Shown here: positions 32,818 through 39,913 of the stretch, in pieces
How positions within the stretch are numbered: the stretch's first letter is position 1
Layout: the number at the start of each line of letters is the position of its first letter
From: a virus
Reading direction: 5' to 3' (one strand)
IMG/VR virus record: IMGVR_UViG_3300044699_000127
Location: 1 to 42,468 of that record
DNA: 42,468 nucleotides
The notes under the pieces: model-generated
Seen by the model: only the letters and a program-made list of their open reading frames with translations
Told to the model about the DNA's origin: nothing
Databases searched by the model: none
Position numbers and translations under genes: made by a program

Positions 32818-35046
32818 TGGCAACGATCTCGTCATTGGTTGTGAGCTAAAACTTCAAGCCGACAACTCAACAACGGATTGAAGAACGCGCAGCGCGAGGC
32901 GAAGGAATTCGAAAAAAACGGTTAAGCCAACGACCCAACTCCTCAACGATATCGGATCGGCGGCAACCAGCGCAGGCCAAACCTGTCGCTTGGTCTGACC
33001 GTGCCGCTCGTCGCCTTCGGCGGGTTGGCGGTTAAGACTTCAACGAAGCGGAGAGAGCTTCCACGTTGATGAGAATGCAATCCGGTCCACGGGCGGAGTT
33101 GCTGGAAAGAGCGCAGATGAGTTGCGCAGGCTCGCGACATCGCTGCAAGGCGATTCGGTCTTCGATGATGACGAGATCATTCAGAAGACAATTACTCAAC
33201 TGTTGACGTTTACCAACATTGCCGGGACCGCGTTCGACCGTGGCGCGCAGGCGGCACTGAACATGTCGACCGTGCTCGGCCAGGATCTCCAATCCTCAGC
33301 AATCCAGGTCGGTAAGGCTCTCAACGATCCGGTCGCGGGCGTCACGGCCCTGCAGCGGTGTCGGCGTGAAGCTGTCTGAACGATCAGAAGGAACTCGTCA
33401 AGTCCTTCATGGCGGTCAACGACATTGCGGGCGCGCAAAACGTCATCCTGAAGGAACTGGAAAAGGAGTTCGGGGGCGCGGCTAAGGCGGCTCGCTGGTG
33501 GGCTCTGGGCCCTGCAGCAACTCGGGGTTCAGCTTGGCAACGTCTCAGAGAAATTCGGCGAACTCATATCAGAGGGATTGCTCCTCTCATCGGATATGTC
33601 GAAAGGCTGGTGACGTGGCTGGGCAGCCTTGATGATTCAACCAAGACGGTACTACTGGTTATCGGCGGGCTGGCTGCCGCAATCGGCCCCTGCTCGTCTT
33701 CTTCGGAACGCTCGCTCTTTCCATCTCAAGCATCATCACGTTGTTGCGGCGGGCGGCCATTCATGATCGCGATGACGGCCGTCGGCACGGTCTTGACCGG
33801 CCCTGTCGGTATCGCCATCGCTATCGGCGTTGTGGTTGCGGCTCTTACTGCGTTTGCTCTGAAGAATGAAGCGGTGCGCGAGGCTCTCGGCGCCGGTGGG
33901 CGCGATCCGGGACAGCGTCGGCAGTGTGCTCACTGAACTCAAGGGGCTGTTTGATGTCTTCATGCCTTACATCGAAGCCGCGTGGAAGCTTTGGGTCGGG
34001 GTCATCAAGGCGGAATGGACGGTCATTTCAACACCCTCGGGCCTGTTCTCAGTGTGGCTTTCGACGTGGTCAAGACCGTGCTCAAAAGCGCACTGGATAT
34101 TCTCGCAGGCGGCATACGCGCGTTTACCGGACTGATTACCGGCGACTGGACAAAGTTCGGGGAAGGGATCCAAAGATTTGGCAAGCCCTATGGGACGCCA
34201 TCAAGCGCATCCTGACGGCGCCCTCGACGCGGTTAAGGGCGCGGTAACGGGCTTCACCCAGGGTGTTACGAGCGCCTTTTCGAGTATGTGGGACAAGGTC
34301 GTGGGCATTCTTTCGTGCCCGACATGATCAACCGGATACAGGGTAGAGTTTGCCGACTGTCCAGCGTTATGGAAAGTCCGTCTTGGATGCCACGAAGTCC
34401 GTGATGGATTCTTTCACGTCGATGTTTAACACGCTGACGTCCGAGCGCGTCCTGGGTAGACAAGATCGGAGCGATTTTCGGCGGGCTTAGCGGGGCCGCT
34501 GGTGGCGGCGGCGGGGGCGGCCTGCTTAGCGGAATCCTCGGCAAGCTTGGCATTGGCGGCGGGGGCGGCGGCGGTGCCGATGGCGGGGCGGCGCGGGCTG
34601 CTCCGGCGCCGGTGGTGGCCTTACCGGTGCGCTTGGACCTCTCGGGATGGGTTTCGACGTGGGCTATAAGATCGCCAAGATGTTCGGCCTGGGAGGCCAT
34701 CCGAGCAAGAAAAATTCCAGAAGGAACACGACGAAGCTGTGCGGAGGCAGGCGGCGCTAATCGGGCATCGCACGATCAGTGGCTCCAAATGTCTCGAACT
34801 GGTCCCGGCTACGATTCACCACTGCAAAGTCCGTATGGCGCGTTTTACGGTGCCGATGGACGCCCTGCGCGGGCCTTGGCGGCGGTGCCATCGGCGGCGG
34901 TATGGCTGGGGGCGGCGGCATCACCGTCAACGTCAACATCGCCTCCGGGCTATGGTTTCCGGTGAAGACATCGTGCGGAAGATCGCCAGTGACATCGGCA
35001 GATGGCGCTCGCTGGCGAAATCAATCCTTTCGCGTTCGGACGCTAA
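32817..35046 (+). CDS. Tape measure protein (frameshifted)
   Basis: ATG 32817 overlaps the chaperone stop (TAATG). Order: MATISSLVV, ELKLQADN, LKNAQREAKEFEK, SLGLTVPLVAFGGLAVK, KSADELRRLATSLQGDSVFD, DEIIQKTITQLLTFTNIAGT, ALNMSTVLGQDLQSSAIQVG. Then NVILKELEKEFGGAAKAAR, LVTWLGSLDDSTKTVLLVIG and GLAAAIGP..., hydrophobic segments (VGIAIAIGVVVAALTAFALK). A Gly-rich region follows (34490-34620), ending ITVNVNIASGYGF, GEDIVRKIASDIGR. About 743 residues, which suggests a tail of roughly 110 nm by the usual residue/length ratio. Membrane-like helices in the middle fit a role in DNA ejection. Confidence 0.9.
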
Positions 35047-37016
35047 ATGGCAAACGCAGGATCACTTTCAATGCGGTCAACGCGGACTTCACTAAAGACG
35101 TGGCGTCGTTGGAGATTCTTCCGGTTCGCGATAAGTCGCGCCTGAAGTTCCAAATCTGAACATCGCGTCAGCGTTCACCGTGCGGGCACCTATCGCAACT
35201 TGAGAAACTCCAATGCGACAGAGTCCGACCTGAAGACCGCGTTGCTTCAAGCATCGATGTGGGCGGAAGCAGGATTGCCGTGGACGTTCGCACGCGACAG
35301 CGGTCTGGTTGTCAGCACGACCTTGGACGCCGCGCCGCAGCCGGTGCTGCCGCAATCCCGTAGCGTCGGCGGCAGGCATTGTCACGGGCAGCCGCTACGT
35401 GATCGAAAGCGAGTCTGAGGCTGCCGTCGTCAAGGCAACCAACTCCGCGACAGATCCTGTGACGATTTCCGTCGCCATCAACGCGGGCTTTGCTCGGCTC
35501 GCGCTTCAGGTACTTCGAGTTCCTGCCGATGCTGGGCACAATCAAAATCACCGAGACAGATCAGTTGGATTACGACGTGGAAATCAGCGGGCGTCGTGGA
35601 TCGGAGAGCGCTCTAATGCTTAACCCAACGCTAACCTACGCAGCAGCGAACGCTCTGGCGACGCGGACACCTACCTATGCCGTGGAAAATTCTCCGGGGC
35701 TTCGTGAAGAGATCCTGAAGGATTCGCCTTCGCTGTTCCTGGAGCTTGGCGAGGAGTCCGGCCCGTCGCTTCGGATGCGTCCGGCAATGGGCTGGACGGC
35801 ACCTATCAGGCGGCTCCAACGCTGGCGTGCGCGGTCCCTTCGTCAACGACCGGGCAACCGCGTGCTGTTCAACGGCACCACGCAGTACGTCAGCATCGCC
35901 GACAACAGCTGCTTGATCCTGCGGATCTGCAATCGGGCGAGGCATGGGTGCGCCCGAGAGTCATCGGCAGCACGATGACCATTTTCGGCAAGGGCTCGAC
36001 GTCGCTGGAGTTCTACATCAAGACCACCGGGAAAATTGCGATCTCGAAAAACGGAACCGCGGAGATCGTCGAATCCACCGTGGCGCTCACCGCGGGTTTG
36101 GGCTCACGCTGCCTATACGAAGTCGGGCAGCACGGTTCACTATACATCAACGGCAGGACGTCACCAGCACGGTCACGAATCAAACGATTGCCGCCACCGC
36201 GTCGGCATTTTCAATTGCATCGACGACAGGCTGGCTCTCTGGATCGCTTTGCCGTCTGGCCCTCTACGCCACAGAACTTTCGGCAGCACGCATTCGGCGC
36301 ACTATAACGCGGGCCGCGGCGTCGGCGCGTTTGCGATGCTGGCAAGCGCTACACGACGCACCATCTGTTCGATTACTTCGAGGAAGTCTTAGCCGCAACC
36401 CGTCGCTCTATCTACGGCTTGGCGAAGCGCAGGAACTGTCGCTGTGGATTCCAGCGGCAACCGGCTTGATGGCGTGTATGTGAACACGCCCACCCTTGGG
36501 TTACGGGCGCACTGTCCGGTGACCAAAACACTGCCATCACGCTGAACGGACGGACGAATACATTACCCGTGCGGATCACGCGCTGCTCGATCCCGGCGAC
36601 GTCTGCTCCTTCACATTTTGGTAAAGCCAGTCCTCGCTGGATCAGCGGCGAGATGGCGGTGCTGTTCAAGAATAGCGGCGGCTACTACGTCAGCATCCAC
36701 GACACGACAGGATCATCAGTCTGGTGAAGGTTGCCTCCACGCGATCGCTCATTCCACAACCGGAGCCGCGGCTGGCGTCTGGAGTTTCGTCGCGATCACC
36801 AAAAACGGGCGACCCACAAAACTCTATCTCAACGGCGTGGACGTCACGACGCAGAGCGGCGACACGAATCAAACGATTGTTGCTACGGCTTCAGACCTCT
36901 ATATCGGCTCCGATACGTATGGATATTTCAAAGGGTCTTTGGACGAGCTTGCGATCTATCCCGCTGCTCTCTCTGCGGCTCGCGTGCAGGCCCACTACGA
37001 TGCTGGCCGCGGCTGA
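35047..37016 (+). CDS. Distal tail protein with two LamG-like domains (frameshifted)
   Basis: ATG 35047 follows the tape measure stop directly. The N-terminus is FNAVNADFTKDVASLEILPV, then NSNATESDLKTALLQASMWA, SRYVIESESEAAVVKATNSA and FRYFEFLPMLGTIKITETDQ, a tail-type beta module. From about 35700 a first laminin-G/concanavalin-A-like domain follows: SPSLFLELGEESGP, LFNGTTQYVSIADNS, FYIKTTGKIAISKNGTAEIV, LAL.ATELSAARIR. A second similar domain starts near 36390: SLYLRLGEAQ, ALLDPGDVCSFTFWVKP, FVAITKNGRPTKLYLNGVDV and LDELAIYPAALSAARVQAHY. About 656 residues. LamG-like domains bind sugars or proteins, so receptor binding is likely. The stop overlaps the next ATG as TGATG. Confidence 0.8.
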
Positions 37017-39913
37017 TGAATCTGCCAGACAATATCAAGTGCATGAACCCGACGGCCTTGCGTGGAATCTCAGCTCAGGTCGAGCCCGAGCGCGGACGAT
37101 CCACAGTAAGCTCCATCGTGCTGCCGCTTATCGATCAGAGTATCTATGACGCCGAAGTCCTGGCAGATGCGCCGTCGCTCTATCTGCCTTTGAATGAAAA
37201 GTCCGGCGTCGTGGCAGGCGACGCGAGCGGCAACTGTCTGCACGGCTCGCCTGTTGCAGCTCCGACATTTGGGAACGCCGGGCCGCTGGCTGAGCCGAAT
37301 ACCTGTCTCGCGATGAACGGTTCAACGCAGTACGTGAGCGTACCGGATCACGCGCTGCTCGATCCCGGCGACACGTTCACGCTTGAGGCTTGGTAAAGCT
37401 CCCTCTTTCGTGGCGATCAGGACTTTATCTCGAAGGGCTTTAATGGCTACAGGTTTTATGTCAACAGTTCTGGCGTGGTGAAAGGTGAGCGGTATGGCGC
37501 GGGCGCGATTGTGCTGGCGTTGACTGCACTGAGCTTGAATATTTGGTATCACGTCGCATGGGTCAAGTCTGGCGCGACAAACACCCTCTACGTAAACGGC
37601 GTGAACGTCACGAGCAGCGGCACGAATCAGACCATCACCGCGACAGCCTTTCCTCTGAACGTCGGACGGAACCAAGGGCCGGGTGGATATTTTGGCGGCA
37701 GCATTGCCCGCGTTGCTATCTATCCAGCGGCGCTCTCTGGAGATCGCGTGCAGGCCCACTACATCTCAGGCTCTGCGAATGTCGGCAGCCGCGGTGCCGT
37801 GACGCGATTGCTTTACGAGGGACTCAGCAACAGGCGGGCCACGTTCCGAGCTGGCTTCAGCTCGATCTGCTATTCCGATTTCACGAGCTTTCAGCGAGGG
37901 GTGATTGAACGTGCCTCTATGACTTCTGATCTGCTCGGCTTCGATGTGACGCTCAAAGATCCTTCCACGTTGACCAATAGGAAAGTCTGCGGCGGCGGGC
38001 GAGTAAGCTCACGTTGGCAATGACCACGGTAGTGACGACGCTGTATCTGGTGGACGCGTCGAGCTATGAGGATACGGGCGTCGTGCAGATCGACAGTGAG
38101 CTGGTGTCCTATACAGGCAAACGGGAAGGCTTCACGATCAACACACCGCAATTCGATACCGCTTACGGCGGCGGCTCGTGGGTCTCTGTCGGCACAAACG
38201 ATTGCTGGTACTCCGACGATGGAAAGAACTGGCATGTGGGCGTGATCCCAGCGGGAGCCTATTTGAGCGTGTGCGCGCTGCGGCGTTGGGCTTGTTTGTC
38301 GCCGTGGGAGCCTATGGGGTTATCGCAACGAGCCCTGACGGGCGGGTGTGGACTGCGCGAACCGCCGCGGAAGCGAATCAGCTTAGTAGTGTTTGCTGGA
38401 ACGCAGACAACGGGCTGCTCGTGCTCGTGTCCAGAGACGGCACGAACCGCGTGCAGTATTCCAGCGACGGCATCACGTGGACCGCAGCAGCCGCCGCGGA
38501 AGCCAATCCTTGGGGGAGCGTCTGCTGGGCATCGGGGTTGTCGGGTGGCTCGAAGTTTGTGGCGGTTGCGGCAACGGGCACGAATCAGGTGATGTATTCC
38601 AGCAACGGAATCACGTGGACTTCCGCCGCCGCCGCCGCCGCAAAACCTTGGGGCTGCATTGCCTACAACGGGACGATGCTTGTCGCGTTGGCTGCTGGGG
38701 ACATCGCCTATGGCACGAATCTCGTTATGACCTCCACCAACGCCACGGCATGGACGAGTCAGAGCTGCCAGCCGGGACTGTGGTATCGGCTTCTGTATGT
38801 ATCCGCGCTGTCGCGATGGATAGGGGTGGGAACGAGTGGCCTTGACGTAGCCTCGCTTCAGTATTCCGCGGACGCCATCACGTGGAGCTACAGTGCTGCT
38901 GGATCGAGCTGGAATCCGCCCGTCGTCGGTGCCTGTTACGGCGTGGCATGGTCTAACGACCATTCGCTGGCGGTGGTGGTCTGCGGCGCGTTGCTTAGTG
39001 CCCAGCCGCCTATCGCGAGTATCTGGTCTACCAACCTGATGACGTGGGAAGCAACGTTCAGTGCCTTGACCGGCCTGACACGTGGCGTCGATATTCTGAA
39101 CACGATAACGGTGCCCGCGACACATGCCGCGGGACAGACCGTCAGAGAAACGTTTCACGCTCGGCCAGCGCACATCGTGGATATTGTCGAAGGTCTGCTG
39201 CTGGCACCGGCAAGCTGGGTGCTGACATGCCGCCATCGCTCGTGAACAGCACAAAGCTGGCGGCGGTCAAAGCTGCGCTCGGCGACAGTTACATCGTTCA
39301 ATTTTTTATCGAAGAGGAGTTCAATCTAAAACTCTTCATCGAAGACGAGTGCTGTGCGCCGTTCGCTCTGTATCCCGGCATCGGGGAGAAGTGGTCTCTG
39401 GTGCGAATTGGCAACGATGCCGCGGCGGTAGCGACAATCGTGGACGCAGACATTGTCCCGGCTGACGGCATTCCGCAGATTGGCTTCGACCCGGATTACG
39501 CGTCGATCTTCAACCGCGTGACTGTCGAGTGTGACTGGAACTCGGCCACCTCGAAGTATGAAACGGCCCGCGTCTTTGAGCGTCCAGACTCGATTATCGC
39601 CAACGGCGTGCGCCCCTTCACCGTGCGGTCCAAAGGACTGCGGACGAGCTTCGCTGGGACGGAGACCTTGATCGCCGACATCGCGAGCCGCCTCCTCGAC
39701 CGTTACGAAAACGGGGCACCAAAGGTTTCCGCAACGACCTATCTGTATAAGAACGTCCTCGAAGCTGGAGACCAAATAAGTCTCACGTCGGCAGTAATTC
39801 CAAACCTAGCCACGGGCGTGCGGGGCGTGTCCGCGCAGCTCAATGAAGTCGTGAGCCGCGGGCTCCAGTTCAGTGCCGGTACTGTGAAATTCGAACTGAT
39901 GAAGGTGGGGTAA
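37016..39913 (+). CDS. Baseplate/distal tail protein with inserted LamG-like and propeller-like domains (frameshifted)
   Basis: ATG 37016 overlaps the previous stop. The N-terminal tail part is CMNPTALRGISAQVEPERGR and SSIVLPLIDQS. A LamG-like domain follows (APSLYLPLNEKSGVVAGDAS, NIWYHVAWVKSGATNTLYVN, VAIYPAALSGDRVQAHYISG). The tail core resumes with VTRLLYEGLSNRRATFRAGF and TLYLVDASSYEDTGVVQIDS ELVSYTGK. It is then interrupted by about 300 residues of propeller-like repeats (VQYSSDGITWT, VMYSSNGITWT, LQYSADAITWS). It continues FSALTGLTRGVDI, ATHAAGQTVRE, DIVEGLLL, and finally IVQFFIEEEFNLKLFIEDE, FDPDYASIFNRVTVECDWNS and EVVSRGLQFSAGTVKFELMK. About 965 residues. The tail core is typical of siphovirus tail proteins that sit below the tape measure. 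Both extra domains look inserted into it and probably contact the host surface. Confidence 0.8.

Follow-up and report, generated by a model that had tools for sequence, protein, structure and literature searches.

We describe a phage tail-hub gene in which two foreign domains are nested within the structural core of the encoded protein. The gene lies in the window analysed here, the whole of IMG/VR record IMGVR_UViG_3300044699_000127 (42,468 bases), which matches Pfam families of a phage integrase, of the nuclease domain of a large terminase and of a phage capsid and is an uncultured temperate siphophage-like virus contig, from a virus of bacteria. Positions 37016-39913 (+ strand) encode a tail-hub protein of about 960 residues when read through, interrupted by a LamG domain (insert 1, measured at about 37139-37792) and by what is most likely a seven-bladed, Ycf48/BNR-like beta-propeller (insert 2, about 38122-39065). 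We are almost certain that this nested architecture is real, and we consider it likely that the gene as a whole specifies a central tail-tip hub whose two nested lectin-like and propeller modules give the virus extra host contacts. The parts of the gene are listed below with the evidence for each, L223 being the locus of a homologue without the inserts.

37016-37138 (+): hub core up to LIDQ, opening part of the N-terminal attachment (gp27/gpL-like) domain; alignment to L223 hub residues 40-66
37139-37792 (+): insert 1, LamG (Laminin_G_3), about 218 residues; Pfam PF13385; in-frame stop at 37394-37396
37793-37984 (+): hub core, remainder of the attachment domain (GAVTRLLYEGL...); alignment to L223 residues 68-93 and hub profile
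37999-38121 (+): hub core up to ELVSYTGK, hairpin (oligosaccharide-binding-type) module, first half; half-module profile, E=3.9e-12
38122-39065 (+): insert 2, most likely a Ycf48/BNR-like beta-propeller, about 310 residues; frame change near 38286; four-sequence profile and phage relatives
39066-39200 (+): hub core, hairpin module, second half (LTGLTRG...ATHAAGQTV), with the region that follows; nine-sequence hub profile, second-half profile weak
39209-39913 (+): hub core, C-terminal domain; 33% identity to the L223 hub; hub profile E=7.1e-23 (six-frame pieces of the window)

The hub core and its two insertion sites

A profile of nine hub sequences, aligned to the read-through window protein, places its positions 112-221 on residues 257-366 and its positions 222-523 on residues 677-959, leaving the 310 extra residues of insert 2 between the adjacent profile positions 221 and 222. 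A six-sequence profile, with positions 70-105 at residues 13-49 (-0.7 bits, non-significant alone) and positions 113-219 at residues 268-365 (7.5 bits), puts LIDQ and GAVTRLL on opposite sides of the LamG domain, the first of these stretches being weak. Total scores of 84.6 bits with six sequences and 81.9 bits with nine compare with 2.3 and 3.1 bits, respectively, for the best of 200 shuffles. Core homology to hub-type proteins is present in these profiles on the read-through protein as well as in a direct alignment of the C-terminal piece to the L223 hub (33% identity over 161 aa, pairwise E=3e-20).

The chance test applied to individual window fragments consisted of alignment to one insert-free homologue, the L223 hub, with 300 shuffles each. 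It assigns 37016-37138 to L223 residues 40-66 and 37784-37984 to residues 68-93 (0/300 shuffles as good in either case), placing insert 1 between hub residues 66 and 68. The fragment before the propeller (37999-38121) ends at L223 residue 181 (1/300 shuffles as good), and for the C-terminal fragment (39209-39910) none of the 300 shuffles did as well. Hairpin-module profiles compiled from a motif scan were split at the turn, with 91 and 80 distinct segments for the two halves, and compared with 1015 six-frame pieces of the window; the first-half profile has its top match at the expected site (E=3.9e-12), and the uncut module profile (96 segments) breaks at the same turn, matching with positions 5-46 before it (E=1.1e-9) and with positions 48-72 behind insert 2.

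An earlier note, made from the letters alone, had proposed that the core would run on continuously once two stretches were removed, and the resumption of the hub profile at the adjacent position, together with the homologues that lack both stretches, bears this out; the strings it quoted lie in their places on the + strand, though across three reading frames. Homologues without the insertions, which it had proposed to seek, were found in nine cases: L223/L227 (the record of L169), L224/L121, L228 (a Nitrospiria bin), L229, L230, L231, L232, L233 and Pan4_15 of Pseudanabaena phage Pan4, a member of phrog_11439 (E=7.3e-98). These proteins are taken as hubs on the basis of their fold and gene order, each lacks both inserts, and the outcome in which every homologue carries the same domains did not occur. 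The window protein is in this sense a decorated tail protein, with two foreign domains in loops of a structural domain that the nine homologues lack.

The search for homologues started from L121 and L169, two stretches of the hairpin-motif scan judged by eye to be of hub type. L121/L224 and Pan4 were found through a pattern or match spanning the hairpin turn and the other seven through non-spanning patterns; insertion site 1 was not the route to any of the nine, the one pattern that spans it being a string absent from L228. Late in the search only hub-type open reading frames (ORFs) were followed. The hub C-terminal piece had no match in viral contigs and none at E<=1 in 38 records with related capsids, where an empty result is uninformative for want of a positive control; the C-terminal piece of a homologue had none in phages at E<=0.1, and a core piece returned four rows in phages, all at the chance level of E 2-3. 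The capsid alignment found no match in bacterial genomes.

The fold of the core was predicted with AlphaFold2 (eight sequences) on the insert-free homologue L227. The model has a mean predicted local distance difference test score (pLDDT) of 45.7, with values of 57-69 at residues 61-120 and of 63-86 at residues 141-210. Site 1 corresponds in it to the turn between strand 58-64 and helix 66-77 (pLDDT 57-66) and site 2 to the beta-hairpin turn between strands 174-178 and 185-187 (local pLDDT 74-86), so that the insertion into a beta hairpin proposed in the earlier note holds for insert 2, but not for insert 1, which sits in a strand-to-helix turn. Three PDB matches of the model in Foldseek reach E<=0.001, and all three are chains from the tail tip or baseplate of phage Chi, phage JBD30 and RcGTA. 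In comparisons with VIA-align 2, where Z values below 8 may reflect a common arrangement only and which are informative for residues 1-124 and 135-213 alone, the former residues matched the hub attachment domains of lambda gpL (Z 8.8) and T5 pb3 (Z 8.7), with the T4 gp27 entry under the caution line (Z 6.3), and the latter matched the GP4 portal-tail complex (Z 9.8), Chi (Z 9.1), JBD30 (Z 8.6) and LKA1 gp49 (Z 7.6). Residues 135-213 also matched a chain of an entry titled Vibrio phage VP1 capsid (Z 9.3), and the hairpin-module match is therefore no proof of a hub. The RcGTA hub covers both modules at Z 8.7, but with a root-mean-square deviation of 11.7 over 184 residues, and the core may also resemble folds outside the VIA-align 2 listing. 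On this naturally insert-free homologue, whose model is of modest confidence, the expectation that the core would fold without its inserts is matched by a partly hub-like fold.

Frames are short along the entire contig, the longest stop-to-stop piece in the window being 408 aa; in six fetched records the longest such pieces measure 579-1504 aa in five and 381 aa in the sixth. The hub gene has one stop and three frame changes, located within the LamG domain, between two core pieces, within the propeller and in the C-terminal core, and we take these breaks as probable read error rather than decay because many genes are affected. The same short frames might be taken to indicate that the whole arrangement is an artefact, a chimeric or error-ridden contig having fused separate genes, but this we regard as extremely improbable: behind insert 2 the core picks up at precisely the profile position that comes next, and a chimera is unlikely to cut at a hairpin turn and rejoin there. 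All four junctions between insert and core (4/4) are moreover in frame, each within one open piece and with no break on an insert boundary, which argues against separate genes or a chimera. As to the record in general, the short frames across the window (1-42468) have the pattern of an unpolished long-read contig, and the capsid frame spans 264 aa, versus 465 aa in the related locus L008.

The LamG and propeller inserts

The LamG-like domain that the earlier note had recognised between its first pair of strings is confirmed by a match of Laminin_G_3 (PF13385) to 37397-37984 (E=1.8e-17, 64.3 bits versus a gathering score of 27.6), and in the PDB insert 1 matches 4qvs, an S-layer domain-containing protein (E=1.2e-4). 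The nearest relative found of the hub LamG is a LamG domain in the adjoining upstream gene, which is listed here with the other feature used to read the gene order.

33122-33376 (+): piece of the tape-measure gene, gene-order marker; Pfam TMP_2, E=1.8e-4, 21.7 bits, under the Pfam cut-off of 30.2
35047-37016 (+): upstream tail gene, broken, Dit-like by position only, with two LamG domains; Laminin_G_3 matches and DNA repeats

The LamG domains of the upstream gene lie at about 35690-36330 and 36331-37013, with Laminin_G_3 matching at E=3.2e-16 on 36618-37013 and weakly, at E=0.028, on 35948-36304. Between the hub LamG and the nearer of these two, 46/91 alignment columns are identical; 13 phage records match the hub domain, at 34.4-38.7% identity in the ten rows listed, and the LamG copies share DNA repeats, one of them identical at 29/29 bases. 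Because the hub LamG is closer to this neighbouring copy than to the phage matches listed, and the copies have these repeats in common, a duplication of LamG between neighbouring tail genes appears likely. The gene order of tape measure, Dit and hub is tentatively read from a sub-threshold TMP_2 match and a Dit label given by position alone; in Pan4 the hub gene Pan4_15 lies two genes behind a 1,917-base gene in tape-measure position, annotated as hypothetical, and the similarity of the Pan4 order is our own reading of genes annotated there as hypothetical proteins. In L227, the closest relative without inserts, the gene before the hub (L227:3140-5011) seems by eye to have a lectin-like stretch near its start, with no Pfam family match. 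Two loci reached via the LamG piece, L003 and L005, were set aside as sharing, by eye, LamG-type stretches only.

For insert 2, the earlier description of some 300 residues with a repeated blade motif agrees with the approximately 310 residues measured and with seven motifs counted by eye, but the consensus is exact in 2/7 blades (VQYSSDGITWT and VMYSSNGITWT) and degenerate in the other five. By tblastn, repeats akin to the insert occur in 8 phage records, which include those of Synechococcus phage B23, Stenotrophomonas phages CM1 and RAS14, Limnohabitans phage DC31 and, in its annotated tail fibre protein (E=1e-3), Caulobacter phage KSC; the propeller piece has no match in viral contigs. A profile of the window piece and the B23, RAS14 and DC31 stretches matches Ycf48 (PDB 8am5) at E=1.1e-5 and 5ojp at E=0.83. 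Ycf48 is a seven-bladed propeller, the fold to which these similarities most likely assign insert 2.

Since BNR-type propellers include sialidases, the propeller might be an enzyme-like or trigger module, for example glycosidase-like or sensing, instead of a plain binder. In keeping with this, the insertions published for the gp27-like domain of Tals from Streptococcus thermophilus phages are lysins (PMC9437275). We nevertheless consider such a function very unlikely for insert 2, for whose sequence no NCBIfam family is listed and no Pfam family reaches the cut-off, and for which Ycf48, an assembly factor, is the one solved relative that a profile matches significantly. In Synechococcus phage B23, 323 residues of propeller repeats form an open frame (L254:3869-4837) on the strand opposite the annotated b23_0328 and b23_0329, and the annotation there may be wrong.

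Relation to published hubs and proposed role

Domain insertion in tail hubs is already known; the propeller, the positions of the sites and the hub family differ here. In phages of lactic acid bacteria, carbohydrate-binding modules (CBMs) nested in loops of Dit bind the host with lower affinity than the main receptor-binding protein does, and in some Tals the gp27-like domain contains CBMs (PMC7291167). The Tals of SW13 and TP-778L have two lysin modules between sub-domains 3 and 4, far off the axis in predicted structures and with insert linkers of about 40 residues (PMC9437275). Like the evolved Tal, the window hub holds foreign domains inside the gp27-like structural domain of what would be a trimeric hub (PMC7291167, PMC9437275), but the Tal inserts described there are CBMs or lysins, whereas here a LamG domain is nested in the attachment domain and a propeller in the hairpin turn of another hub family. 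The evolved Dit likewise nests modules in loops (of its galectin domain) of a ring-forming tail protein (PMC7291167), but it is a hexamer with another carrier fold and other modules, and the window protein is a hub.

The RcGTA hub g13 (PDB 6tba; PMC7296036) has its attachment and oligosaccharide-binding modules in the order that matches residues 2-213 of the L227 model; its chain of 292-296 residues, however, shares the work with a megatron protein, whereas in the window a single, longer chain makes up the hub and has two further domains. The second RcGTA module owes its name, oligosaccharide-binding domain, to a resemblance to the LKA1 gp49 insertion domain (PMC7296036), and the propeller is therefore nested in a module that is itself linked to sugar binding. 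Propellers are used or proposed in the adhesion devices of phi11, whose receptor-binding protein includes one, and of phiKZ (gp131C), as in our reading of the window, but within the text drawn on they sit in receptor-binding or peripheral proteins, none nested in a hub hairpin (PMC4901313). The central tail hub of phage AXL3 is reported to carry a LamG at residues 874-1024 of 1036, towards the C-terminus (PMC7504290). Members of phrog_11439 ('tail fiber protein'; Pan4_15 and its relatives) have the same hub layout of hairpin module and C-terminal domain, with Pan4_15 lacking the inserts, but are remote in sequence, the window pieces having no match to them at E<=0.1. In the literature listings searched we noticed no description of a tail hub with a nested propeller, which is no proof of absence, and the window hub joins the published ideas on insertion at two sites that we have not seen described.

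In the mechanism we put forward, a single chain would run from an N-terminal attachment domain through a hairpin module to a C-terminal hub domain, with two foreign domains nested in frame, the LamG in the strand-to-helix turn and the propeller in the hairpin turn. Both ends of each insert join the core at one short turn, and the core could therefore still fold and trimerise. From related hubs and from the domain types we infer a trimer with outward display and ligand binding, in which each tail tip would present the LamG and the propeller three times each, next to the LamG domains of the adjoining tail protein. The inserted modules would most likely make extra low-affinity, multivalent contacts with host surface sugars or proteins before DNA delivery, a role parallel to that of the CBMs of evolved Dit and Tal, and receptor contact by these modules is probable.

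LamG domains and propellers are typical ligand-binding folds, which counts against an alternative in which the inserts would be structural spacers or stabilisers of the tail tip, in contact with fibres or with the neighbouring tail protein, and not receptor-binding modules. Such spacers would be in line with the common occurrence of decorating modules in phage tails (PMC7291167) and with the spread of the hairpin module itself through many unrelated structural proteins; the phi11 receptor-binding protein, however, carries a propeller (PMC4901313), a LamG-bearing gene adjoins the hub gene, and we judge a purely structural role to be unlikely.

Several results weigh against the interpretation of the gene as a hub with nested host-contact modules. 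The gene is broken into five open pieces in this contig, so that no intact product is seen; no homologue with only one of the two inserts was found; and the hub C-terminal piece has no relative at E<=0.01 in 50,697 phage records. Behind insert 2, the fragment 39060-39200 is non-significant against the L223 hub (152/300 shuffles as good or better), its support coming from the profiles, and there the second-half profile has its top match at the expected site but weakly (E=0.017, the next at 0.62), and the uncut module profile is weak there too (E=0.11). The L227 model is poor beyond residue 213. The window propeller piece taken alone has no Ycf48 match in the PDB and no Pfam family above cut-off, and its AlphaFold2 model is unusable (pLDDT 34.8).

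Precedents for insertion in hubs come from Gram-positive siphophages, and what is added here is a beta-propeller, a pair of sites known to within a few residues, and another hub family. The case provides places at which insertion is tolerated, one lying in a hairpin module that is widespread, and makes the question of how phages gain host contacts with the tail intact directly testable.

The hairpin module and variation among hubs

The hairpin-motif scan of viral contigs returned at least 120 stretches, in many unrelated structural proteins, and to judge by sequence comparison the hairpin module is a mobile building block. The module (ELITYTGK....TGCTRG..GTTAASH; L103-L222) stands at varying positions in unrelated phage structural proteins, some with two or three copies. 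Among 155 matches to its first half (E<=0.01, extending to its end, in ORFs no shorter than 150 aa), the second half is adjacent in 148, while six of the other seven have by eye a turn lacking a long insert and one (L149) has about 22 extra residues, a count that is no measure of the rarity of split hairpins because some loci overlap (L223/L227, L228/L234) and most come from a pattern requiring an intact turn. We put forward only tentatively, as a possibility more doubtful than the role proposed above, that the hairpin-module turn is a general docking socket of tail proteins, able to take a 300-residue propeller with its fold kept, that in this phage lectin-like domains also spread between neighbouring tail genes by duplication, and that the tail tip is a multivalent adhesion ring with parts exchanged at fixed turns.

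The hub profile matches 151 ORFs, of which the ones listed have either several matching stretches or over 150 columns of the profile. In proteins from four genomes of the phylum of L228 (L243, L247, L248 and L250), some 230-245 extra residues appear to separate the hairpin module from the C-terminal domain, with weak matches for the second stretch of the profile (E 0.11 to 3.2), and alignment to the profile suggests a third place where hubs may vary, between these two parts of the core. The C-terminal domain of L243 matches Pfam Phage-tail_3 (E=3.6e-6).

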